Shown here piece after piece: positions 19,231 through 30,181 of a stretch of DNA of 64,000 bases. Source of the DNA: Aquimarina sp. TRL1 (GTDB lineage Bacteria > Bacteroidota > Bacteroidia > Flavobacteriales > Flavobacteriaceae); assembly GCF_013365535.1 (NCBI RefSeq), contig NZ_CP053590.1, positions 3,400,501-3,464,500 of the forward strand. Reading direction: 5' to 3'. The notes under the pieces were generated by a model. That model was not told the origin of the DNA. It saw only the letters and a program-made list of their open reading frames with translations, and ran no database searches. Each line of letters opens with the position of its first letter. Position 1 is the first letter of the stretch. The position numbers and the translations under genes were made by a program.

Positions 19231-20145
19231 TTATTGTAGTGAATTAACAATTGTATTGACGTTGTATAAAAACATGCCTGTATAGGTTCCTTCTTTAGTG
19301 TCTGGGTTACCTAATGCATCTGAATATAAGGTTCCTCCGATAGTTACTTCATGGTTTTTAGAGGTTACAGCAGCCTGTAGTGCTTCAATAGTTCGTTTAG
19401 GAACAGAGCTTTCTACAAAAATAGCTTTTACCTTTTTTTCAATAATTAAGTTCGCCAATCGCTGTACGTCCTGTACGCCTGCTTCGGTCGCTGTAGAAAT
19501 CCCTTGTAATCCGATTACTTCAAAATCGTACGCTTTTCCAAAATAACTAAAAGCGTCATGAGCAGTTACTAAAACTCTTTTTTCTTGAGGTAGCGTGTTA
19601 ATGATTTGCTTGATCTCTGTGGCTAAAAGGGTTAGTTTTTTTAGATATATATCCTTGTTTTTTTCAAAAGCATCTGCATTTTTAGGATCTGCCTTTTTTA
19701 ATTCCTGAGTTGCGTATTGTACTACCTCTTTCCAATTGTTAATATCGAACCAAACATGAGGGTCATAATTAGAAGCAAAATAATCAGAGTCAATCAGCGC
19801 TTCTTTTTGCAAAATATTCGCAAGTGCTACAGTTTTGATTTGCTGGTGCTTCATTTTTTCAAAAATTGCTACCAGTTTCCCTTCTAAATGTAATCCGTTA
19901 TAGAAGATGATATCTGCATTGATTAATTTAGAAACATCTCCCTCTGTGGCTTTGTATAAATGAGGGTCAACTCCTGTTCCCATCAGGCCATCTACCTGGA
20001 TTAAGTCTCCTCCTATATTATGTAAGATATCAGTAATCATAGATGTGGTAGTGACTACATGAAGTTTTTCCTTAGGTGTTTTTTTATTTGAATTACAAGA
20101 GAAAAGAGAAAGGGTTATAAGGAGTAGAAGGGTGATTTTTTTCAT
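19231..20145 (-). CDS. TroA-like metal-binding lipoprotein of the ABC importer
   Basis: A 304-residue solute-binding protein of the cluster 9 (TroA/ZnuA/PsaA) family. The lipobox LFSC places the lipidated Cys at 17. The expected metal ligands are His62 (VDPHLY), His130 (DPHVW), His196 (VTAHDAF) and Asp276 (YSDALG). A His,His,His,Asp set is TroA/ZnuA-like rather than the His,His,Glu,Asp of Mn-specific Psa[10 protein letters not shown] and ESSVPKRT also fit TroA. First gene of the operon, divergent from a DtxR-family gene. Confidence 0.94.
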
Positions 20146-20456
20146 GTCTGATTAAATAATAGTGATTAAATGCGCTTAGGGGATAGCTTTCTTATTAATA
20201 ATATGATAACTGAAAGGAGAAGTAAATCGTATAAAGGGGAGGAGATAGGACTTCTCTTTTGTTTTTAAAATTTTTTTATAAATAGAGAAAAGACTTGTTA
20301 ACTTTTTCGGAATAAATAAGGGGTGAGGGGATTTTTCTCGATAGAAAATAAAAGATATTCCGTACAAGTTGAAAAAAACGAACGAAACGATCTTAAGTAA
20401 TTGCATTCGGTTTAGTAAATTTGCCTTTTAATGGTACAAAATTAAAAAAGTTAGCT
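20146..20456. other. Divergent regulatory region between the metal importer and its DtxR-like regulator
   Basis: 311 bp with no gene. TAAATTTG at 20416-20423 is an exact -7 promoter element for the regulator. GATTAAAT occurs twice (20150-20157 and 20164-20171) with a 6-bp gap just upstream of the importer start. No canonical DtxR or MntR palindrome was recognised. Confidence 0.55.
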
Positions 20457-21143
20457 ATGACTAACAAAGGGAATTTGCATAAATTAACAAAAAGTGAGGA
20501 GGATTACCTAAAAGCCCTTTTTCAATTGCTTATTGATGAGGGGTTGGAGAAAGTAGGTAATAATCAATTGGCAGATCACCTCAATGTATCTCCTGCTTCG
20601 ACCAATAATATGGTGAAGAAGCTAAAAGCGAAGGGGTATGTAGTGAGTGAAAAATATACAAAATTAGACCTTACAGAAGAAGGGAAGCGAATTGCTGTAA
20701 GGCTGATAAGAAAGCATAGGTTGTGGGAGACATTTTTATGTGATTATCTCAATTTTACTTGGGATGAGGTACATGAAGTGGCAGAGCAAATGGAGCATAT
20801 TAATTCTCCGAAGTTAATTGATGAGTTAGATCGCTTTATGAATTACCCCAGAAGAGACCCACATGGAGAAATTATACCGGATGCAGACGGGAAGTACTCT
20901 ATTCAACCAAAAGTAATGCTGTCTTCTCTGTCAGAAGGAGATGTCTGTCAGCTTGTATCTGTTAATGATGGTTCTGTGACTTTTCTTAGGTACGTGTCAG
21001 AGATAGGACTGGTGCTAAGCAGTAAAATCACCATATTAGAAATTAGAGACTTCGATAACTCTATCAGAATTCAGTTTGATGACAGGGTAGAAACAGTCAC
21101 AAAAAAGTTTGCAGATAACGTATTTGTGAAAATTAGTAAATAG
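20457..21143 (+). CDS. DtxR/MntR-family metal-dependent transcriptional regulator
   Basis: A 228-residue regulator from the ATG at 20457 (an upstream in-frame TTG at 20421 overlaps the -7 promoter box and is rejected). The N-terminal winged helix includes NQLADHLNVSPASTNNMVKKLKAKG (split here as NQLADHLNVSPAST and NNMVKKLKAKG, about 31-56). The dimerisation domain contains the metal ligands typical of the family (LIRKHRLWETFL; EVHEVAEQMEHI). A C-terminal FeoA/SH3-like domain spans about 150-228. Divergent from the TroABCD-like operon, which it most likely represses when metal is replete. Confidence 0.93.
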   Translation: MTNKGNLHKLTKSEEDYLKALFQLLIDEGLEKVGNNQLADHLNVSPASTNNMVKKLKAKGYVVSEKYTKLDLTEEGKRIAVRLIRKHRLWETFLCDYLNFTWDEVHEVAEQMEHINSPKLIDELDRFMNYPRRDPHGEIIPDADGKYSIQPKVMLSSLSEGDVCQLVSVNDGSVTFLRYVSEIGLVLSSKITILEIRDFDNSIRIQFDDRVETVTKKFADNVFVKISK

Positions 21144-21167
21144 ATATACTAATTAAGATAAATAACG

Positions 21168-21199
21168 TTTGAGAATGTAATGAATACCTTATATATTTG
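21168..21199 (+). promoter_or_regulatory. Promoter of the exonuclease operon
   Basis: TTTG (21168-21171), 20-bp spacer, TATATTTG (21192-21199), an exact -7 element. It ends 17 bp before the start codon. Confidence 0.6.
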
Positions 21200-21216
21200 G
21201 GATACACAATCAATTT

Positions 21217-21993
21217 ATGGAGCTTAATTTAAAAAAACCGATATGTTTTTTCGATCTTGAAACAACCGGGGTTAATATAACGAAAGATCGTATTGTCGAA
21301 ATTTCAATTCTAAAAGTATTTCCGAATGGAAATAAAGAAAGTAAAACATGGCTGGTAAATCCGGAGATGCCAATTCCTCCTGCTACCACTGAGATTCATG
21401 GGATTTCTGATGAGAAAGTCGCTAATGAACCTACTTTTAAGCAACTGGCTTCAAAAGTACATGAGATGATCAAAGGCTGTGATTTAGGAGGGTTTAACTC
21501 GAATCGATTTGATATTCCCTTATTAGCAGAAGAGTTGTTGAGAGCAGGATATGATTTTGATATGAAAAATACTGTAGGGGTCGATGTACAGACGATTTTT
21601 CATAAAATGGAAAAGAGAACCTTATCAGCAGCCTATAAGTTTTATTGCGATAAAGATTTGGAAGGAGCACATTCTGCAGAAGCCGATACGATGGCGACAT
21701 ATGAAGTACTAAAAGCTCAGTTAGATCGCTATCCGGAACTAGAGAATGATACTAAATTTTTAGCAGATTTTAGTTCTAGAAATCAGTTTGCCGATTTTGC
21801 AGGTTTTATAGCTTTTAACAATAAAAAAGAAGAAGTGTTTTCTTTCGGAAAACACAAAGGAAAACTTGTAGCACAGGTACTCGAAGATGAGCCTGGGTAT
21901 TTTGGATGGATTCAGAATGCAGATTTTCCATTGTATACAAAAAAAGTATTGACGGCTATTCGTTTGAGGAAATTGAATAATAGCTTTAAATAA
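21217..21993 (+). CDS. DnaQ-like 3'-5' exonuclease (Pol III epsilon / ExoX type)
   Basis: A 258-residue DEDDh exonuclease. Exo I is FFDLETTG (residues 11-18), Exo II includes GFNSNRFDIPLL, and Exo III is HSAEADT (about 150). The C-terminal ~60 residues (FGKHKGK, EPGYFGWIQNADFPLYTKK) are the small domain seen at the end of ExoX-like proteins. It heads a tight group with the FAH-family, HPt and cinA genes. The role is probably DNA repair or end trimming rather than replicative proofreading. Confidence 0.92.
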   Translation: MELNLKKPICFFDLETTGVNITKDRIVEISILKVFPNGNKESKTWLVNPEMPIPPATTEIHGISDEKVANEPTFKQLASKVHEMIKGCDLGGFNSNRFDIPLLAEELLRAGYDFDMKNTVGVDVQTIFHKMEKRTLSAAYKFYCDKDLEGAHSAEADTMATYEVLKAQLDRYPELENDTKFLADFSSRNQFADFAGFIAFNNKKEEVFSFGKHKGKLVAQVLEDEPGYFGWIQNADFPLYTKKVLTAIRLRKLNNSFK

Positions 21994-22036
21994 AAAGAAG
22001 GAGAAAGTCCTTTTTTATGAAATAGTAAAAAAATAA

Positions 22037-22648
22037 ATGAAGCTTATTTGTATTGGTCGTAATTATACGGATCATATAGAAGAATTAGAAAATGAAAAAC
22101 CAAAAGATCCGGTAATTTTCTTGAAACCTGATACTTCTATCTTATTAAAGAAACAACCTTTTTTTATACCTGATTTTTCTGATGAAGTGCATCATGAAGT
22201 GGAGATTTTGGTAAAAATCAATCGGATTGGGAAATATATTGATAGAAAATTTGCTCATAAGTATTATGATGAAATTGGTTTGGGAATTGACTTTACGGCT
22301 AGAGATCTGCAGCGAGAATTAAAAGAAAAAGGATTGCCTTGGGAAAAGGCTAAATCATTTGATGGTGCTGCAGTAATAGGGAAGTGGGTTTCTAAAAATG
22401 AATTCGAAAATGTAGATGCAATTGACTTCTGTTTGAAAAAAAATGAAGAAGTCGTGCAGCAGGCAAATACAAGTCTTATGTTGTGGAAGATTGATGAATT
22501 AATAGAATATGTGTCAAAATATTTTACTTTAAAGATAGGAGATATTATATTTACAGGAACGCCTTCTGGAGTTGGAGCAGTAAAAGCAGAGGATAGATTA
22601 GAAGGATACATCAATAATCAGCAGTTTTTTTCAATACGAGTAAAATAA
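22037..22648 (+). CDS. Fumarylacetoacetate hydrolase family protein
   Basis: A 203-residue single-domain FAH-fold enzyme. It starts at the conserved CIGRNYTDHIEEL (about 5-16). The metal site is formed by HHEVEI (about 54-59) plus GLGIDFTARD, and SFDGAAVIG, IFTGTPSGVG and KAEDRLEGYI follow. Members act as oxaloacetate decarboxylases or acylpyruvases. The stop overlaps the next gene's ATG by one base, so translation is coupled. The exact substrate is undetermined. Confidence 0.92.
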   Translation: MKLICIGRNYTDHIEELENEKPKDPVIFLKPDTSILLKKQPFFIPDFSDEVHHEVEILVKINRIGKYIDRKFAHKYYDEIGLGIDFTARDLQRELKEKGLPWEKAKSFDGAAVIGKWVSKNEFENVDAIDFCLKKNEEVVQQANTSLMLWKIDELIEYVSKYFTLKIGDIIFTGTPSGVGAVKAEDRLEGYINNQQFFSIRVK

Positions 22649-22986
22649 TGGAAAAAGGATATAGTTTAGAAAAAGTGAATGAATTATCGGGAGGAGATAC
22701 AGAATTTGTGTCTGTTTTAGTACAGACATTTTTAGAAGAAATTCCTCAGGATTTGGATAAGATGGTTCATGCAGTAAATTCGGATGATCCTCCTCAGGCA
22801 TATCAGTATGCGCATAAAATGAAACCAAATCTTCAATTGTTTGATATCGATCTTCTATCGTATATAAAAGAAGTAGAAGCTTGGTCTAAAACCAATAAAA
22901 CAAAAGAAGAGATTTCGATTGTTATAGAGCATATAGTTGCTACTATAAGTAAAGCAATTTCTGATCTCAAAGCAGATTTTGAATAA
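22648..22986 (+). CDS. Stand-alone HPt (histidine phosphotransfer) domain protein
   Basis: A 112-residue four-helix HPt domain. The phosphoacceptor His lies in YAHKMKPN (about residue 52), followed by a hydrophobic helix (LQLFDIDLLSYI). The N-terminal helix carries LSGGDTEFVSVLVQTFLEE. No histidine kinase or response regulator is adjacent, so its partners are encoded elsewhere. It is fused by a 1-bp overlap to the FAH gene and ends 2 bp before cinA. Confidence 0.85.
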   Translation: MEKGYSLEKVNELSGGDTEFVSVLVQTFLEEIPQDLDKMVHAVNSDDPPQAYQYAHKMKPNLQLFDIDLLSYIKEVEAWSKTNKTKEEISIVIEHIVATISKAISDLKADFE

Positions 22987-22988
22987 TA

Positions 22989-24227
22989 ATGCAAGCAGAA
23001 ATTATAACGATAGGAGATGAAATTCTTATCGGTCAGATTGTTGATTCAAATTCTTCATTTATAGGGCGAAAGCTTGGCGAGATAGGAATTGATGTAGCTC
23101 AAATAACTTCCATTAGTGATCAGCGAGAACATATTTTAACAGCTATGTCAGCAGCGGCGGCTCGTGTAGATGTAGTGCTCATAACCGGTGGTTTGGGACC
23201 TACAAAAGATGATGTTACCAAAGCGACTTTATGTGAGTTTTTTCAAGATTCATTGCAGGAAAATGAAGAAGTTCTGGCGCATATAGAAATGTTATTCACT
23301 ACCTATTTGAAAAAACCAACTTCAGAATTAAATAGATTGCAGGCAATGGTGCCTAGTCAGGCTATAGTGCTAAAGAATGAGTATGGAACTGCTCCTGGAA
23401 TGTGGATGGAAAAAGACGGAACAGTATTTATAGCTATGCCGGGAGTGCCTTTTGAGATGGAAAACATCATGCTGTCAGGAGTATTGCCTCGGTTGCAAAC
23501 AAAATTTGAACGTCCTTTTATTTTGCATACCACAATCCAGACCTATGGAATAGGAGAGAGTGATCTGGCAATACAGTTAGAAGATTGGGAGGATAACTTA
23601 CCACCCTTTATAAAATTAGCATACTTGCCTCAATTGGGTAGAGTGCGGTTGCGTTTATCAGCCAGAGGAACAGATCAAAAACGTATAGAAGAAGCAGTAG
23701 CTAAAGAGATTGCTTCTCTTCAGAAATTGATAGGTACTTCTATTGTTAGTATAGGAGAGGATCCTATAGAAAAGCGTATCGGAGCTCTTTTGAAAGAAAA
23801 AGGGTATACCCTTGCTGCGGCAGAAAGTTGTACAGGAGGTAAGGTAGCGCATACTATATCGGCAGTAGAAGGTGCTTCTGCTTATTTTGTGGGAGGGATT
23901 GTCTCATATGCAACCAGAAGTAAAACAGAAGTACTCGGAGTAGAAGCTTCCTTAATTGAACGTTATTCAGTAACTAGTATCGAAGTAGCCGAGCGTATGG
24001 CATTAAAAGCTAAAGAAAAGTTTGGAAGTGATTATGCGATAGCAACGACAGGTAATGCAGGACCTGATAAAGGCGATGGAGATGTTGAAGTAGGAACGAT
24101 TTTTCTAGCTGTAGCAACACCGGATGGAGTGTCTTCTAAAGAAGTTCGTTTTGGGAAAAACAGAGCTCAGAATGTAGCAAGAGCTGTTAATAAATCCCTT
24201 GAGATGGTATTTAATCTATTAAAATAG
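22989..24227 (+). CDS. cinA: CinA family protein (NMN amidohydrolase / competence-damage inducible)
   Basis: A 412-residue two-domain protein. The N-terminal MoCF-type domain (EIITIGDEILIGQIVDSN, then ITGGLGPTKDD near residues 65-75) hydrolyses nucleotide substrates. The C-terminal CinA domain (AAESCTGGKVAHTI, about 278-291, and ATTGNAGPD) is the nicotinamide-nucleotide amidase. Length and motifs are normal for the full-length family. It is last in the four-gene group. Confidence 0.94.
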   Translation: MQAEIITIGDEILIGQIVDSNSSFIGRKLGEIGIDVAQITSISDQREHILTAMSAAAARVDVVLITGGLGPTKDDVTKATLCEFFQDSLQENEEVLAHIEMLFTTYLKKPTSELNRLQAMVPSQAIVLKNEYGTAPGMWMEKDGTVFIAMPGVPFEMENIMLSGVLPRLQTKFERPFILHTTIQTYGIGESDLAIQLEDWEDNLPPFIKLAYLPQLGRVRLRLSARGTDQKRIEEAVAKEIASLQKLIGTSIVSIGEDPIEKRIGALLKEKGYTLAAAESCTGGKVAHTISAVEGASAYFVGGIVSYATRSKTEVLGVEASLIERYSVTSIEVAERMALKAKEKFGSDYAIATTGNAGPDKGDGDVEVGTIFLAVATPDGVSSKEVRFGKNRAQNVARAVNKSLEMVFNLLK

Positions 24228-24370
24228 GAAACGTATTTCCGAACTCTCTTTTTAGAATAGAAACATGTTTTGAGTAGTTGTTTGCTATGTTCTCCAGCTC
24301 CGTATGATGTATAGGGAACAATTATTAGTTTGCGGCTTATTTTGGGGTTGTTACATCTTGATTATTGTAT

Positions 24371-24401
24371 AAAAAAGAACGAGTCATCAAAGATGACTCG
24401 T
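24371..24401 (-). terminator. Terminator of the candidate small RNA
   Basis: Minus strand: a perfect 10-bp stem ACGAGTCATC (24401-24392) with GATGACTCGT (24388-24379), loop of 3, then TCTTTTTT. The T run is only on the minus-strand side. Confidence 0.85.
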
Positions 24402-24469
24402 CCAAATGTACTACTTAATACCCCATATCAAGTATCTGTTAGCTTCTATCAGCTATGATAAACTAACAG
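24371..24469 (-). ncRNA. Candidate structured small RNA, about 99 nt
   Basis: The RNA would start at about 24469, just after an exact Bacteroidetes promoter, and end at a strong terminator. Its 5' half folds into a two-part hairpin: CTGTTAG (24469-24463) pairs with CTAACAG (24442-24436), and inside it TATCA pairs with TGATA around a four-base loop. A ~30-nt linker with GGGGTATT follows, then the terminator hairpin ACGAGTCATC/GATGACTCGT with loop TTT and a T-rich tail. No ORF of note is inside. Family is unrecognised; Flavo-1 or a 6S-like RNA are unverified possibilities. Confidence 0.7.
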
Positions 24470-24472
24470 GAG

Positions 24473-24503
24473 CAAAATTAAGCGCTTTATGGAGTTGTGC
24501 AAA
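24473..24503 (-). promoter_or_regulatory. Consensus promoter of the candidate small RNA
   Basis: Minus strand: TTTG (24503-24500), exactly 19 bp, TAATTTTG (24480-24473). This matches the Bacteroidetes sigma-ABfr consensus TTTG-N19-TAnnTTTG at every fixed position. Confidence 0.8.
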
Positions 24504-24524
24504 CAGGTGAAAATACCTGTTTTT
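24501..24524 (+). terminator. Plus-strand hairpin with T tract
   Basis: AAACAGGT (24501-24508) pairs with ACCTGTTT (24515-24522), followed by further T. It may end transcripts running from cinA, which would then be antisense to the small RNA. It overlaps the -33 box of the small RNA promoter. Confidence 0.5.
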
Positions 24525-24654
24525 GAAATTTAGTAGGTGATCAGAAAAAAAAGTAGGGATTAATATTAAAAAAGATAGAAGTATTATTGGTTGTTAGGTA
24601 AAAAATTTGTTAATTTGCACCCTGTTTTGAAATAACACCAAAATTTAGAAAGAA

Positions 24655-24891
24655 ATGTCAAGAGTTTGCGAACTTACAGGTAAAAAAGCGATGGTAGGGA
24701 ACAATGTTTCTCACGCGATGAATAAAACGAAACGTAAATTTAATGCTAACTTAATTAAAAAACGTTTTTATATTCCAGAAGAAGATCGTTGGGTAACACT
24801 TAAAGTTTCTGCAGCGGCATTAAAAAATATAAACAAGAACGGGATTTCTGCTGTATTAAAAGAAGCGAGAGCCAAAGGTTTCTTTAAATAA
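24655..24891 (+). CDS. rpmB: 50S ribosomal protein L28
   Basis: 78 residues starting [20 protein letters not shown], the standard L28 N-terminus, with [18 protein letters not shown] after it. It has normal length. First gene of rpmB-rpmG-DUF4295, a conserved Bacteroidetes ribosomal cluster, usually followed by ftsY as here. Confidence 0.97.
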
Positions 24892-24918
24892 TCAATCCTT
24901 TATTAAAGATATAGAATA

Positions 24919-25101
24919 ATGGCAAAGAAAGGTAATAGAGTTCAGGTTATATTAGAATGTACAGAGCATAAAGCAACTGGTAAGCCAGGTACTTCTAGAT
25001 ATATTACTACAAAAAATAAGAAAAATACTCCTGATAGAATTGAGTTAAAGAAATTTAACCCTGTTCTTAAGAAGATGACTGTTCATAAAGAAATAAAATA
25101 A
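24919..25101 (+). CDS. rpmG: 50S ribosomal protein L33
   Basis: 60 residues with the L33 pattern [32 protein letters not shown] and a basic C-terminus. The two CxxC zinc pairs are absent, so it is the zinc-independent (C-minus) form of L33. It lies 27 bp after rpmB. Confidence 0.96.
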
Positions 25102-25107
25102 GAAAAG

Positions 25108-25260
25108 ATGGCAAAGAAATCAGTAGCATCGTTACAGACTAAGTCGAACAGGTTAACTAAAGCCATAAAAATGGTTAAGTCACCTAAGACTGGCGCTTAT
25201 ACTTTTGTGGAATCAATCATGGCTCCGGAAGCAGTGAATGACTTCTTAAAGCAAAAATAA
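25108..25260 (+). CDS. DUF4295 family small basic protein
   Basis: A 50-residue ORF starting MAKKSVASLQTKSNRLTKAI, 6 bp after rpmG. The DUF4295 family is found in Bacteroidetes between rpmG and ftsY. The protein is basic and small, in keeping with a ribosome-associated role, but its function is not established. Confidence 0.92.
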   Translation: MAKKSVASLQTKSNRLTKAIKMVKSPKTGAYTFVESIMAPEAVNDFLKQK

Positions 25261-25283
25261 ATTCGCACTTAAAATATTTCAAA

Positions 25284-25325
25284 AAGAAGCCGTTTCAATT
25301 TTATTGGAATGGCTCTTTCTTTTTA
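25284..25325 (+). terminator. Terminator of the rpmB-rpmG-DUF4295 operon
   Basis: An imperfect stem (AAGAAGCCGTTTCAAT with ATTGGAATGGCTCTTTCTT, including G-T pairs) precedes a T-rich tail. ftsY starts 55 bp further. Confidence 0.65.
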
Positions 25326-25380
25326 TATTTATACGCAGATAAATAATGTCTGATAGAATTTTTATAGAATACGTATATAG

Positions 25381-26334
25381 ATGAGTTTTTTTAAAAGGAT
25401 TTTCTCTTCGGAGAAGAAAGAAACACTTGACAAAGGATTAGAAAAATCAAAAACAAGTTTCTTTTCTAAACTTAGTAAAGCTGTTGCCGGGAAATCTAAG
25501 GTCGATGATGAGGTTTTGGATGATTTGGAAGAAGTTTTGGTCAGTAGTGATGTCGGTGTCAAGACTACTATTAAGGTTATTGAAAGAATTGAAGAAAGAG
25601 TAAGTAAGGATAAATATTTAGGGACTGCCGAATTAAATCAGATCCTGAGAGAGGAAATAGCCGGATTGCTTTCTGAGACAAATTCAGGAGAAGCAACAGA
25701 TTATGACATTCCAAAAGACAAAAAACCATATGTATTAATGGTGGTAGGAGTGAATGGTGTAGGAAAAACTACGACTATAGGAAAGTTAGCTTATCAGTTT
25801 AAGAAAAAAGGACTAAATGTTGTTCTTGGAGCTGCAGATACATTTAGAGCAGCAGCAATTGATCAATTGCAGGTATGGGCGGATAGAGTAGATGTGCCTA
25901 TTGTAAAACAGGCAATGGGTAGTGACCCTGCCTCTGTAGCGTATGATACTTTACAGTCAGGAGTTAGTCAGGATGCAGATGTAATAATAATTGATACAGC
26001 AGGAAGACTTCATAATAAGATCAACCTGATGAGTGAATTGACTAAGGTAAAAAGAGTGATGCAAAAGGTTGTAGGAGATGCGCCTCATGATGTATTATTG
26101 GTGTTGGATGGTTCTACGGGACAGAATGCCTTTGAGCAGGCAAAACAATTTACTGCTGCAACAGAAGTAACCTCTCTCGCAGTTACCAAACTAGATGGTA
26201 CAGCAAAAGGAGGAGTGGTTATCGGAATTAGTGACCAGTTTAAAATTCCGGTTAAATATATTGGTGTAGGAGAAGGGATTGAAGACTTGCAGGTGTTTAA
26301 TAAATATGAATTTGTCGATTCTTTCTTTAAATAA
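25381..26334 (+). CDS. ftsY: Signal recognition particle receptor FtsY
   Basis: A 317-residue SRP GTPase. The N domain is followed by the G domain with GVNGVGKTTTIGKLA (about 124-138), DTFRAAA, DTAGR and TKLDGTAKGG motifs. The acidic A domain is almost absent (the N-terminus is only KRIFSSEKKETLDK), as in other Bacteroidetes. It docks SRP-ribosome complexes at the membrane for co-translational insertion through SecYEG. Confidence 0.97.
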   Translation: MSFFKRIFSSEKKETLDKGLEKSKTSFFSKLSKAVAGKSKVDDEVLDDLEEVLVSSDVGVKTTIKVIERIEERVSKDKYLGTAELNQILREEIAGLLSETNSGEATDYDIPKDKKPYVLMVVGVNGVGKTTTIGKLAYQFKKKGLNVVLGAADTFRAAAIDQLQVWADRVDVPIVKQAMGSDPASVAYDTLQSGVSQDADVIIIDTAGRLHNKINLMSELTKVKRVMQKVVGDAPHDVLLVLDGSTGQNAFEQAKQFTAATEVTSLAVTKLDGTAKGGVVIGISDQFKIPVKYIGVGEGIEDLQVFNKYEFVDSFFK

Positions 26335-26651
26335 GAAAAAAGAAAAGTCAGCTATCCCTGAATAAACTCATGTAAGGTTCAAAGGAAGCTACCAGAATAT
26401 ATTTCAATACGAGGAATGAAGTGTTTAAAACCTACCAAGTGAATAAAGTATTTCAATGTAGAAACAAGAATCGTTTACTAGAAAATATGTGTTGATTTCT
26501 GAAGAAATCTAAGAATGTGACATCTCGATTATCGAGTAAAAAGAACGGTACATGCTTATATGTGCGGTTCTTTTTTTATTTTGTGTTCGTTTTAGAAATG
26601 GTACTGATAGTTTTTATGTTGTCAAATAAGACAATTGTATATAAGTAAGAT
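26335..26651. other. Intergenic region after ftsY
   Basis: 317 bp. It holds two short inverted repeats (GATTTCT-GA-AGAAATC at 26494-26509 and CTCGAT-T-ATCGAG at 26524-26536) and the terminator at 26541-26577. GATTATCGAGT at 26527 resembles sequences at 5204 and 11475. No gene or promoter was recognised. Confidence 0.5.
26541..26577 (+). terminator. Terminator after ftsY
   Basis: AAGAACGGTACAT pairs with ATGTGCGGTTCTT with one mismatch and one G-T pair, followed by eight T. It lies ~205 bp after the ftsY stop. Confidence 0.75.
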
Positions 26652-28307
26652 ATGAAAAGAATATTTTTTTTACTGTTGTTAGGGATGATAGTATCGTGTA
26701 AATCGGAGCCCAAACAAGAGAAAGTGCAAAAAGAAGAAGTTGTTCACCAGCAAGATAGTCTGGATAAAATAGCAACGAAACAATTCAGAGACTTCAAAGT
26801 GACGGATGCAAAAGTGATCCAAAATAAAACAATATGGGCTGCTTTTGAAGAAGATTTTAAAAAGTTTACAGAAGTAGAATATCAAAAACTACGTCCTGTA
26901 CTTTTGGAGCGCGAGATTTCTGAAATCCATCGATTGCTTAACGATGGAACTTTGTCCTATGAAGAATTAGTTTTGTTTTATCTATACCGGATTCGTAAAT
27001 ATGATCGGGAGAATGATACATCTCTTAATTCGGTTATAGCGATAAATCCTGATGTGGTAAAGCAAGCAAGGTTATTAGATGAAAAAGAACATGAAATGGT
27101 TTCGGAAAATTCCATGTATGGGATTCCGGTTTTGGTAAAAGATAATGTGAATACTAGCAAGATGTCAACGACAGCAGGAGCTATTGCTATGATGAATAAT
27201 AAAACCGAAGATGCTTTTGTAATAACCAAATTAAAGGAACGAGGAGCACTTATTTTAGGGAAAGCAAACCTGAGTGAATGGGCGTATTTCTTTTGTGGAG
27301 ATTGCCCCAGTGGGTATTCGGCGGTAGGAGGACAAACCTTTAATCCATATGGGAGAAAAAAGTTTGATACGGGAGGTTCTAGTTCAGGAAGTGGAGTGGC
27401 TGTTGCAGCTAATTTCTGTGCGGTGGCTATTGGAACAGAGACTGCTGGCTCTATTTTGTCTCCTGCCAGTCAAAATGCTGTAGTAGGACTCAAGCCTACC
27501 ATTGGATTGATAAGCAGAGGAGGAATTGTTCCTATTTCGAGTACACTCGATACGCCGGGACCTATGGGAAGAAAAGTAAAAGATGTAGCGATTATGTTGA
27601 CGGCGATGGTAGGAGAAGATCAGGAAGATCCTGCAACTTTATTAGGAGGAAAAAGAAAACAAAAAACATATTATGAAGGGTTCGATACAGCATCTGTAAA
27701 AGGAAAACGTTTTGGAGTACTAAAATCATTGGTAGAAGATTCATTATATCAGAACGCAACAAAGGTAATTGAAGAATTAGGAGGCACTTTAGTTGTTGTA
27801 GAAGAGGAAAAAGTGGAGCTACCCGGCTTCCTGCGATTGCTTAATTTGGATATGAAAAAAGATCTTGAAGTGTATTTGTCTATCTATGGAGGAAAAGATG
27901 TAAAGATCAAAAATGTTGAAGATGTGATTTTGTTTAATGAAAAAGACACGCTTATTAGAGCTCCTTATGGACAAGCATTGTTAAAAGGTGTGGTTGCCGA
28001 TTCAGCGAGTACAGAAGAGTTGTTATCGATAAAGGAAAAACTAAAAACAGAAGGAAGAAAATTTTTTGATGTTCTTATGGATGCGAATCAATTAGATGTT
28101 GTGTTATCTGTTAATAATTATCATGCAGGTTTTGCAGCTGTAGCGGAATATCCTGCATTGACAGTGCCAATGGGGGTTACAGAAGAAGGGGAACCAAAGG
28201 GGTTGACATTTATAGGTAAGCCATTTGCTGAAAAGAAATTATTGGAATGTGGGTATGTGTATGAGCAGCAATCAAAAAGTCGGAAACAACCAAAAGCATA
28301 TCAGTAA
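26652..28307 (+). CDS. Amidase-signature family lipoprotein
   Basis: A 551-residue secreted enzyme with lipobox IVSC (Cys17), so it is lipidated and exported. It belongs to the amidase signature family: catalytic Lys in VLVKDNV, the Gly/Ser loop in DTGGSSSGSG, and nucleophilic Ser in GTETAGSILSPAS. It hydrolyses amides in the periplasm or at the cell surface; the natural substrate is unknown. Length is close to the 500-550 of similar bacterial amidases. No operon partner; it is preceded by a terminator. Confidence 0.93.
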   Translation: MKRIFFLLLLGMIVSCKSEPKQEKVQKEEVVHQQDSLDKIATKQFRDFKVTDAKVIQNKTIWAAFEEDFKKFTEVEYQKLRPVLLEREISEIHRLLNDGTLSYEELVLFYLYRIRKYDRENDTSLNSVIAINPDVVKQARLLDEKEHEMVSENSMYGIPVLVKDNVNTSKMSTTAGAIAMMNNKTEDAFVITKLKERGALILGKANLSEWAYFFCGDCPSGYSAVGGQTFNPYGRKKFDTGGSSSGSGVAVAANFCAVAIGTETAGSILSPASQNAVVGLKPTIGLISRGGIVPISSTLDTPGPMGRKVKDVAIMLTAMVGEDQEDPATLLGGKRKQKTYYEGFDTASVKGKRFGVLKSLVEDSLYQNATKVIEELGGTLVVVEEEKVELPGFLRLLNLDMKKDLEVYLSIYGGKDVKIKNVEDVILFNEKDTLIRAPYGQALLKGVVADSASTEELLSIKEKLKTEGRKFFDVLMDANQLDVVLSVNNYHAGFAAVAEYPALTVPMGVTEEGEPKGLTFIGKPFAEKKLLECGYVYEQQSKSRKQPKAYQ

Positions 28308-28367
28308 GAGGTTACTTATTAGTATATAATGTTTGAAGTATAAGGAATTTTATTAAAGGATTCTCTG

Positions 28368-28375
28368 TATCTTTG
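28368..28375 (+). promoter_or_regulatory. -7 promoter element of rimO
   Basis: TATCTTTG matches TAnnTTTG exactly, 20 bp before the rimO ATG. No -33 TTTG at the consensus distance. Confidence 0.55.
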
Positions 28376-28395
28376 CAAACCTTTACCAAGAAGCT

Positions 28396-29697
28396 ATGAG
28401 GACAAAGACGTTAAAGAAAAATAAAATCAATGTAGTAACCCTGGGATGCAGTAAGAATGTCTACGACAGTGAGGTGTTGATGGGACAACTAAAAGCCAAT
28501 AATAAAGAAGTAGTGCATGAGGAGGAAGGAAATGTGGTTGTGATCAATACATGTGGTTTTATTAATAATGCGAAGGAGGAATCAGTGAATACTATACTAG
28601 AGTATTTACATAAAAAAGAAGAAGGAGTTGTAGATAAGGTTTTTGTTACAGGGTGCTTGTCGGAGCGATACAAACCGGATTTGCAAAAAGAGATTCCTGA
28701 TGTGGATCAGTATTTTGGAACAACAGAATTGCCGGGGCTATTAAAGGCTTTAGGAGCAGATTATAAGCATGAACTGATTGGTGAGCGATTAACTACTACA
28801 CCTAAGAATTACGCGTATCTCAAAATAGCAGAAGGGTGTGACAGACCTTGTTCTTTTTGTGCAATTCCGTTAATGAGAGGGAAACATGTGTCTACCCCCA
28901 TAGAAGAATTGGTTGTAGAAGCGACAAAATTGGCAGCTAATGGGGTAAAAGAAATTATTCTGATCGCTCAGGATTTGACATATTATGGTCTGGATTTGTA
29001 TAAAAAAAGGAAACTGGCAGACTTGTTAAAAGAACTGGTGAAAGTTGATGGTATTGAGTGGATACGTCTTCATTATGCATTTCCTACCGGATTTCCGATG
29101 GAGGTATTGGCGCTAATGAGAGAAGAACCAAAAATATGTAATTATATCGATATTCCATTACAGCATATTGCAGACCCTGTTTTAAAATCCATGCGCAGAG
29201 GAACTACGAAAGCAAAAACAACTAAGTTGCTAAATGAATTTAGGACTGCTGTCCCTGAAATGGCAATCCGTACTACTTTGATTGTTGGATACCCGGGAGA
29301 AACGCAGGAAGATTTTGAGACGCTTAGAGAATGGGTACGAGAAATGCGTTTTGAGCGTTTAGGTTGTTTTACATATTCCCATGAGGAAAATACCCATGCC
29401 TATTCTTTAGAAGACGATGTGCCTGAAGATGTGAAAATAGCAAGAGCTAATGAGATTATGGAAATCCAATCACAAATTTCCTGGGAACTCAATCAGGAAA
29501 AAATAGGAAAAGAGTTTAATGTGATTATTGATCGAAAAGAAGGGCAGTATTTTGTAGGTAGAACAGAGTCAGATTCTCCGGATGTGGATAATGAAGTGTT
29601 GATTGATGCTACCAAACAATATTTAAAAACAGGAGAATTTACACGAGTAAAAATATATGAAGCAGAAGATTTTGATCTGTACGGAGAGTTAGTTTAG
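28396..29697 (+). CDS. rimO: Ribosomal protein S12 methylthiotransferase RimO
   Basis: A 433-residue radical-SAM methylthiotransferase. The N-terminal UPF0004 domain carries the first cluster's Cys (LGCSKN, NTCGF, TGCL). The SAM cluster motif is EGCDRPCSFCAIP (about 152-164), and the C-terminal TRAM domain starts near residue 370. It modifies an Asp of ribosomal protein S12. All six cluster cysteines are present and the length is normal. Confidence 0.96.
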   Translation: MRTKTLKKNKINVVTLGCSKNVYDSEVLMGQLKANNKEVVHEEEGNVVVINTCGFINNAKEESVNTILEYLHKKEEGVVDKVFVTGCLSERYKPDLQKEIPDVDQYFGTTELPGLLKALGADYKHELIGERLTTTPKNYAYLKIAEGCDRPCSFCAIPLMRGKHVSTPIEELVVEATKLAANGVKEIILIAQDLTYYGLDLYKKRKLADLLKELVKVDGIEWIRLHYAFPTGFPMEVLALMREEPKICNYIDIPLQHIADPVLKSMRRGTTKAKTTKLLNEFRTAVPEMAIRTTLIVGYPGETQEDFETLREWVREMRFERLGCFTYSHEENTHAYSLEDDVPEDVKIARANEIMEIQSQISWELNQEKIGKEFNVIIDRKEGQYFVGRTESDSPDVDNEVLIDATKQYLKTGEFTRVKIYEAEDFDLYGELV

Positions 29698-29770
29698 ATA
29701 ACGAATACTTCTTTTTTGTGTTTTTTTGAATACAAAGGTAATTTCTAAATAGATATCTTTAATAAAGAAA

Positions 29771-29817
29771 AAAAGCTGAATTCATTTCTCTTTATGTTGT
29801 GAATTCAGCTTTTTTTT
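29771..29817 (+). terminator. Terminator of rimO
   Basis: AAAAGCTGAATTCA (29771-29784) pairs perfectly with 29800-29813 across a 15-nt loop and is followed by T residues. Confidence 0.9.
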
Positions 29818-29830
29818 AAAGTAAATATAG

Positions 29831-30181
29831 ATGAATACTACAGAGGCAATAGTACAAGAGCAATTAGATGCATATAATTCGAGAGATCTTGAGTTGTTTT
29901 TAAGTTTTTATTCGGATGACATTGTAATTTTGGATTTTCCGGGTGAAAAAGTTACCATTTCAGGAAAAGAAGCGTTAAGAAACGTGTATAAGGAGATGTT
30001 TGAGAACTCTCCAAAGCTTCATTGTGAGATTGTTAGTCGTATTGTTTTTGATGACAAGGTATTGGATCATGAACGAGTTAGTGGGCGATATGGAGTAGAT
30101 TTGGTAGAGGTGGTAGCAATTTATAAACTGAGAGAAGGTTTGATTTCGAGTGTTCATTTTGTTAGAAAAAATACAAAATGA
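29831..30181 (+). CDS. NTF2/SnoaL-like small protein
   Basis: A 116-residue protein of the nuclear transport factor 2 fold. The N-terminal helix VQEQLDAYNSRDLELFLSFYSDDIVILD is the usual opening, followed by a curved sheet. Family members are ketosteroid-isomerase-like enzymes or binding proteins; nothing here fixes the activity. It overlaps the YdcF gene by 4 bp (ATGA), so the two are translated together. Confidence 0.85.
   Translation: MNTTEAIVQEQLDAYNSRDLELFLSFYSDDIVILDFPGEKVTISGKEALRNVYKEMFENSPKLHCEIVSRIVFDDKVLDHERVSGRYGVDLVEVVAIYKLREGLISSVHFVRKNTK

Follow-up and report, generated by a model that had tools for sequence, protein, structure and literature searches.

The window analysed here, a 64-kb stretch of the Aquimarina sp. 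TRL1 genome to which all coordinates refer unless a locus is named, very probably contains a real small RNA gene of about 98 nt on its minus strand (24,371–24,468), judging by comparison of its sequence with homologues found in 25 of 52 genomes of the same genus, the window's own included. Transcription would start near 24,468, giving predicted transcripts of 83–98 nt across the homologues. The comparison supports the gene, its borders, its terminator, its non-coding nature, its synteny and a promoter arrangement shared with other genes. On balance, we think it probable that this is an independently transcribed, intergenic and activator-controlled small RNA, which acts in trans by pairing through a GGGG loop.

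The gene lies between rpmB, encoding ribosomal protein L28 (24,655–24,891, plus strand, divergent), and cinA (22,989–24,227, plus strand, convergent). It possesses, in silico, a promoter and a Rho-independent terminator of its own on one strand, the arrangement asked of an intergenic small RNA. From its 5′ end the RNA is predicted by folding to form a nested hairpin (hairpin 1, 24,436–24,469) beginning near the expected transcription start, then a middle hairpin (24,412–24,434), indicated by both folding and conservation, with a GGGG loop at 24,421–24,424. It ends in an intrinsic terminator (24,371–24,403), detected by terminator search and by covariation, in which a 12-pair stem (24,377–24,403) is followed by a T tract to 24,371. 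Closed open reading frames (ORFs) in the window's predicted transcript encode at most 6 aa, and the longest closed ORF is 2–10 aa in all 26 homologous transcripts, hence a conserved ORF is absent, as expected of a small RNA. An initial annotation, made from the window alone, had described the terminator stem with its T tract, the nested hairpin at the predicted start and the lack of an encoded protein, all of which were recovered here; it had overlooked the middle hairpin, which is the most conserved part of the RNA.

Conservation was profiled as mean pairwise identity over 26 distinct sequences anchored at the start. Identity is 0.29–0.40 in the flanking blocks, rises to 0.83 between −57 and −36, where a palindrome is located, and is 0.52 in the spacer and 0.72 in the −7 region; after the T tract it is 0.31–0.37. 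A 23-nt core reaches 0.95 among the 23 sequences that have it at this length; in the other three, which include the window (22 nt), the core length differs. On these sequences, the conserved unit runs from the site over the −35 region through the terminator. In 25 of the 26 sequences four or more consecutive G stand in the loop; the other (L010) has GAGG.

Structure was compared in alignments of 16 loci (A1), 11 loci (A2), 20 of the 26 distinct sequences (A3) and 17 of 18 distinct sequences (A4); MAFFT misaligns L001 within hairpin 1 of A1, A3 and A4, and a shifted terminator in L002 and L009 lowers the A3 counts. Two-sided changes occur in seven of nine terminator stem pairs (20 aligned sequences). 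Cells with a two-sided change number 21, all in the terminator, against 6.7 in shuffled alignments, none of 500 being as high. The middle hairpin is paired in 97.0–99.3% of cells, with one-sided changes only, and hairpin 1 in 95.8% of cells in a structure-fitted alignment (18 distinct sequences), where a single sequence shows one two-sided change, from A-U to U-A. Taken alone, the two upstream hairpins show no covariation above that of shuffles (68–80 of 500 reach it), a test which is uninformative because their sequence is too constant; they are supported by conservation and energy, not covariation. Left unprompted, RNAalifold recovers the middle hairpin, with 10 pairs, as well as the terminator, and leaves out hairpin 1, which has 3 nt in common with an extended form of the middle hairpin, the two being alternatives in most relatives. 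Conserved structure in relatives, which the initial annotation had put forward as a check, was thus found in the covarying terminator stem, together with conserved sequence.

In the working we propose, a putative activator would bind the palindrome over the −35 region and recruit housekeeping RNA polymerase to a TAnnTTT box, and the RNA would be expressed along with a few accessory genes that share its promoter arrangement. The RNA would fold into the 5′ hairpin, a hairpin displaying GGGG and the terminator, and would act in trans, its G-rich loop most likely pairing with C-rich sites in mRNAs. The loop complement has 12 exact matches in the window's genome, one of which is the RNA itself. Allowing one mismatch gives 218 matches, and 178 in a reversed control, which is no clear enrichment. 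When the 11 other exact matches were read against ORFs (first ATG, at least 60 aa), one fell in a start region, at about codons 5–9 of a lipoprotein gene resembling adenosine deaminase, where 12 pairs are possible (by eye). This gene is present in five of the 52 genus genomes, the other four without a loop-complement site, and no conserved mRNA target was found among these 11 exact sites of the window's genome. The main rival explanation is that the GGGG-loop hairpin binds a protein, as a decoy or scaffold, instead of pairing with mRNA. We regard this as unlikely, though as a serious competitor: the loop and its closing stem are near-invariant while the terminator varies, and the missing conserved target also fits, but a constant loop agrees equally well with a base-pairing seed.

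Independence from neighbouring genes can be judged from what follows the T tract. In 18 of the 26 sequences the first gene is a same-direction ORF of 133–142 aa (grouped by eye), 52–160 nt from the T tract in 17 sequences and 513 nt in L003; of the rest, one has another same-direction gene and seven have a convergent gene, cinA in the case of the window. The RNA is conserved as a unit across these three kinds of downstream context, as is required of an independent small RNA, and that it keeps its form in all of them speaks against its being the leader of one particular gene. The frequent same-direction ORF could still suggest that the RNA is the 5′ leader or attenuator of that gene, with a regulated terminator; this we consider improbable, as the RNA is intact in the seven sequences with a convergent first gene, the window included, and several genus genomes which have no RNA carry an ORF of this kind next to rpmB (by eye).

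The distribution of the RNA was determined with two sequence models, one built from 11 relatives with the window left out and the terminator included (R1) and one built with the window and without the terminator (R2, a body model, by which the window's RNA scores 52.3 bits). R1 accounts for the 25 carriers among the 52 genus genomes, detecting the window's own RNA at E 3e-4, and rpmB is present on every such locus; its other genus matches, down to E 0.1, were left out of this count. BLAST with the 133-nt stretch likewise gave relatives within the genus, 15 of them adjoining rpmB. Among 45 loci tested, some sharing a genome, rpmB is divergent and 173–287 nt from the RNA start in 42, and the remaining three stretches show no rpmB within their length. 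The cinA–rpmB junction, proposed in the initial annotation as the place to look for synteny, held in its rpmB half only: rpmB stays as the neighbour and cinA does not. This constant neighbour might suggest that the RNA, being divergent, regulates rpmB in cis, which we regard as very improbable, since the RNA starts at that distance and is transcribed away from rpmB, and the block upstream of rpmB is also kept in many RNA-less genomes (by eye).

Across 84,980 species genomes, in a scan which may leave out records near the window, the core pattern matches 20 contigs, of which 18 bear the name Aquimarina, one is Flavobacteriaceae bacterium RhTr2 (probably the same as genus genome G047) and the last is a Bacteroidia metagenome-assembled genome (L148) with the same synteny. 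R2 gave one match in 397 family genomes, the window's own, and no other carrier under stricter filters with 13 candidates scored per genome. The RNA is accordingly genus-restricted as found so far, in Aquimarina only. Several further candidates were rejected. R1 matched 117 of 299 family genomes at E values of at most 0.1. Of the loci retained from this search, the 29 other than the window all lacked an rpmB, cinA or ftsY match, and those with the match displayed looked like terminator hairpins; four second R1 matches within the genus were terminators of other genes (by eye). The pattern GGGGTAATTNAGTAG, which does not fit the window's own core, one base shorter, occurred in five of the 397 family genomes, fewer than its reversed control, with rpmB at none of the five loci.

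In 26 of the 51 genus genomes in which rpmB was found there is no intact RNA at that locus, hence the RNA is dispensable. R2 left 25 of these 26 loci blank and detected a degenerate copy in G023 (L089; 26.4 bits, E 0.03). On a quick tree of the rpmB–ftsY region with many weak branches (51 of the 52 genomes, G046 giving no rpmB match), RNA presence requires seven changes, at least four of them on well-supported branches. We take this, from the sequences compared, to mean that the gene is old in the core genus and has been lost repeatedly, with repeated gains as the alternative. By eye, the copy in L089 (about 1,286–1,355 and beyond, minus strand) looks like a degenerate RNA gene split by an insertion with inverted ends.

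The promoter had been called perfect in the initial annotation, and TTTG-N19-TAATTTTG is indeed present on the minus strand, with the −33 TTTG at 24,500–24,503 and the −7 box TAATTTTG at 24,473–24,480. Across the homologues, however, only part of this motif is retained: the TA and TTT of the −7 box are invariant in all 26 sequences, whereas its final G occurs in two and the −33 TTTG in the window alone. The promoter is thus not simply canonical, the conserved part being a block over the −35 region (24,501–24,524) containing the palindrome ACAGGTATTTTCACCTGT at 24,503–24,520, presumably an activator site. The palindrome consensus, ACAGGTRTTTWTACSTAT, lies 22 nt before the TA of the TAnnTTT box, a distance constant in all 26 sequences, and the composite of palindrome and box is present in each of them with 0–3 mismatches. 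In the window, the inverted repeat of the palindrome is exact over 6 + 6 bases and its right end is overlapped by the TTTG, hence the agreement with the consensus is probably incidental.

Against chance expectation the motifs fare unevenly. TTTG-N19-TAnnTTTG occurs twice in the 64-kb window and is equalled in 14 of 100 shuffles, therefore the promoter match alone proves little; TAnnTTTG alone occurs 89 times against 87 expected. The terminator ranks first of 12 terminator-like sites in 20,000–30,000, where shuffles give 3.6. A 103-nt minus-strand segment folds at −38 kcal/mol (z −6.2), a value that none of 200 shuffles attains; once most of the terminator is removed, the remaining 76 nt score z −2.4, which 7 of 200 shuffles match. 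Since the opposite strand is also well folded (z −4.7), it is the promoter and T tract, and not the fold, that choose the strand. That promoter and terminator motifs merely coincide by chance around the cinA 3′ end, with no gene there, is practically negligible as an explanation: chance would place 0.62 copies of the promoter motif in the window, but the sharp conservation over 26 distinct sequences, the covariation of the terminator and the stable synteny all stand against it, and it is this conservation, rather than the motifs, which settles that the RNA is a gene.

The reading of the initial annotation, an RNA gene of no recognised family, was supported by the homologues beside rpmB and by the Rfam searches. 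Rfam 15 gave no match at the gathering score in the window or in six homologous loci, and a relaxed search gave four sub-threshold matches (E 0.89–5), each far below gathering, with neither 6S-flavo (RF01685) nor Flavo-1 (RF01705) among them. The latter two are listed as non-coding RNAs for Bacteroidetes (PMC2864571); they resemble the Aquimarina RNA in being Bacteroidetes non-coding RNAs and have no covariance-model match to it. Rfp18 of Flavobacterium psychrophilum is described as a small RNA with strong predicted structure, conserved beyond its species, whose deletion lowers the mRNA of two metalloproteases and which pairs via its third stem-loop (PMC9723704). The two are both structured flavobacterial small RNAs, compared here by description only: Rfp18 is a Flavobacterium small RNA, whereas the core of the Aquimarina RNA matched 20 contigs, 18 of them named Aquimarina, in the whole collection.

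GibS and FopS of Bacteroides thetaiotaomicron are also Bacteroidota small RNAs with conserved seeds (PMC7366714, PMC11697453). GibS is alike in that its promoter is non-canonical and includes a near-palindromic motif (PM2) common to other genes, but the PM2 elements are at −10 and −30, whereas the Aquimarina palindrome is at about −43 and joined to a TAnnTTT box. Furthermore, the FopS seed occupies a 5′ region that is single-stranded, and GibS is described as largely unstructured, in contrast to the GGGG of the Aquimarina RNA, which is in a hairpin loop. Titles found in literature searches on Aquimarina small RNAs and on a Flavobacteriaceae small RNA at rpmB named nothing on this RNA. On these Rfam and title searches, the Aquimarina RNA belongs to a known kind of small RNA but forms a new family, restricted to its genus.

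To our knowledge, few small RNAs of marine Flavobacteriaceae have been described and hardly any with an assigned regulon. The Aquimarina RNA offers clear borders, a testable loop and natural presence and absence among sister species; its shared promoter site predicts which genes are made together with it and gives a handle on a putative regulator of Aquimarina accessory genes. Allowing at most one mismatch, the palindrome element has 77 occurrences in the 52 genus genomes, of which 18 are promoters of the RNA; the reversed pattern has five. In front of other genes, too, the palindrome is followed by a TAnnTTT box, after 22 or 21 nt. Pfam hits behind palindrome and box include a tyrosinase (L185), a patatin-like phospholipase (L188) and a formyl transferase (L234), with a ferritin-like protein (PF12902) at spacing 21 in L187; in the window's own genome (L232) the element precedes an FHA protein, a kinase and a YcaO protein. 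In L234, L237 and L239 this promoter leads into short ORFs of about 28–31 codons, two of which resemble membrane peptides (by eye). The ORFs behind the element in L235 and L238 gave no Pfam match, and other palindrome sites have no box at that distance, some of these sites being within ORFs.

Composite matches beyond the RNA's own (at most three mismatches, fixed box, one match subtracted per RNA-bearing genome for the RNA itself) number 126 in the 25 RNA-bearing genomes (reversed control 22) versus 30 in the 27 others (control 11), with zero in the RNA-bearing G044. On well-supported branches, RNA presence and promoter number can be compared in four independent pairs, none contrary, for which a sign test is not significant; the association is confounded by descent and involves few independent events. 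In other genera, the composite (at most two mismatches) was detected 29 times in 297 Flavobacteriaceae genomes (control 4), one example being ATACGTGTTTTTACGTAT followed after 22 nt by a TAnnTTT box, hence the regulator is probably older than, and wider than, the RNA. Tentatively, and with rather less than even confidence, we suggest that Aquimarina may have an undescribed regulator which binds the palindrome, with the RNA as its post-transcriptional arm, and which would also activate the tyrosinase, patatin, FHA-kinase-YcaO and short-peptide genes. The GGGG hairpin would then be a constant pairing seed in bacteria which are said to lack Shine-Dalgarno sequences, and the RNA and regulon would have been lost together.

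Some further observations were made at these loci. An OAA-family lectin gene (L236, PF17882) was not counted in the regulon, as GAAATTTG stands at the box position and no TAnnTTT is present within 72 nt; the palindrome is at L236:1,293–1,310 and the lectin gene at 1,367–2,197 (G000:C1, about 5,056.3 kb). Many Aquimarina genomes, whether they have the RNA or not, encode next to rpmB a member of a protein family of 133–142 aa (L004, L012, L044, L104, L105, L114 and others, by eye). The FHA, protein kinase (with AAA/TPR) and YcaO genes are in a row at L232:8,479–18,865 (G000:C1, about 4,783.5–4,793.9 kb), in what looks like a peptide-modification cluster, and a second palindrome-N22-TAnnTTT promoter is located at its far end (L232, about 18,903). 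Very short hydrophobic ORFs (about 28–31 codons, by eye) follow the same promoter at about 13,334–13,480 in L234 and on the minus strand of L237 and L241, near 2,209 and 2,749, and adjoin genes resembling ABC-transporter and MATE-type transporters.
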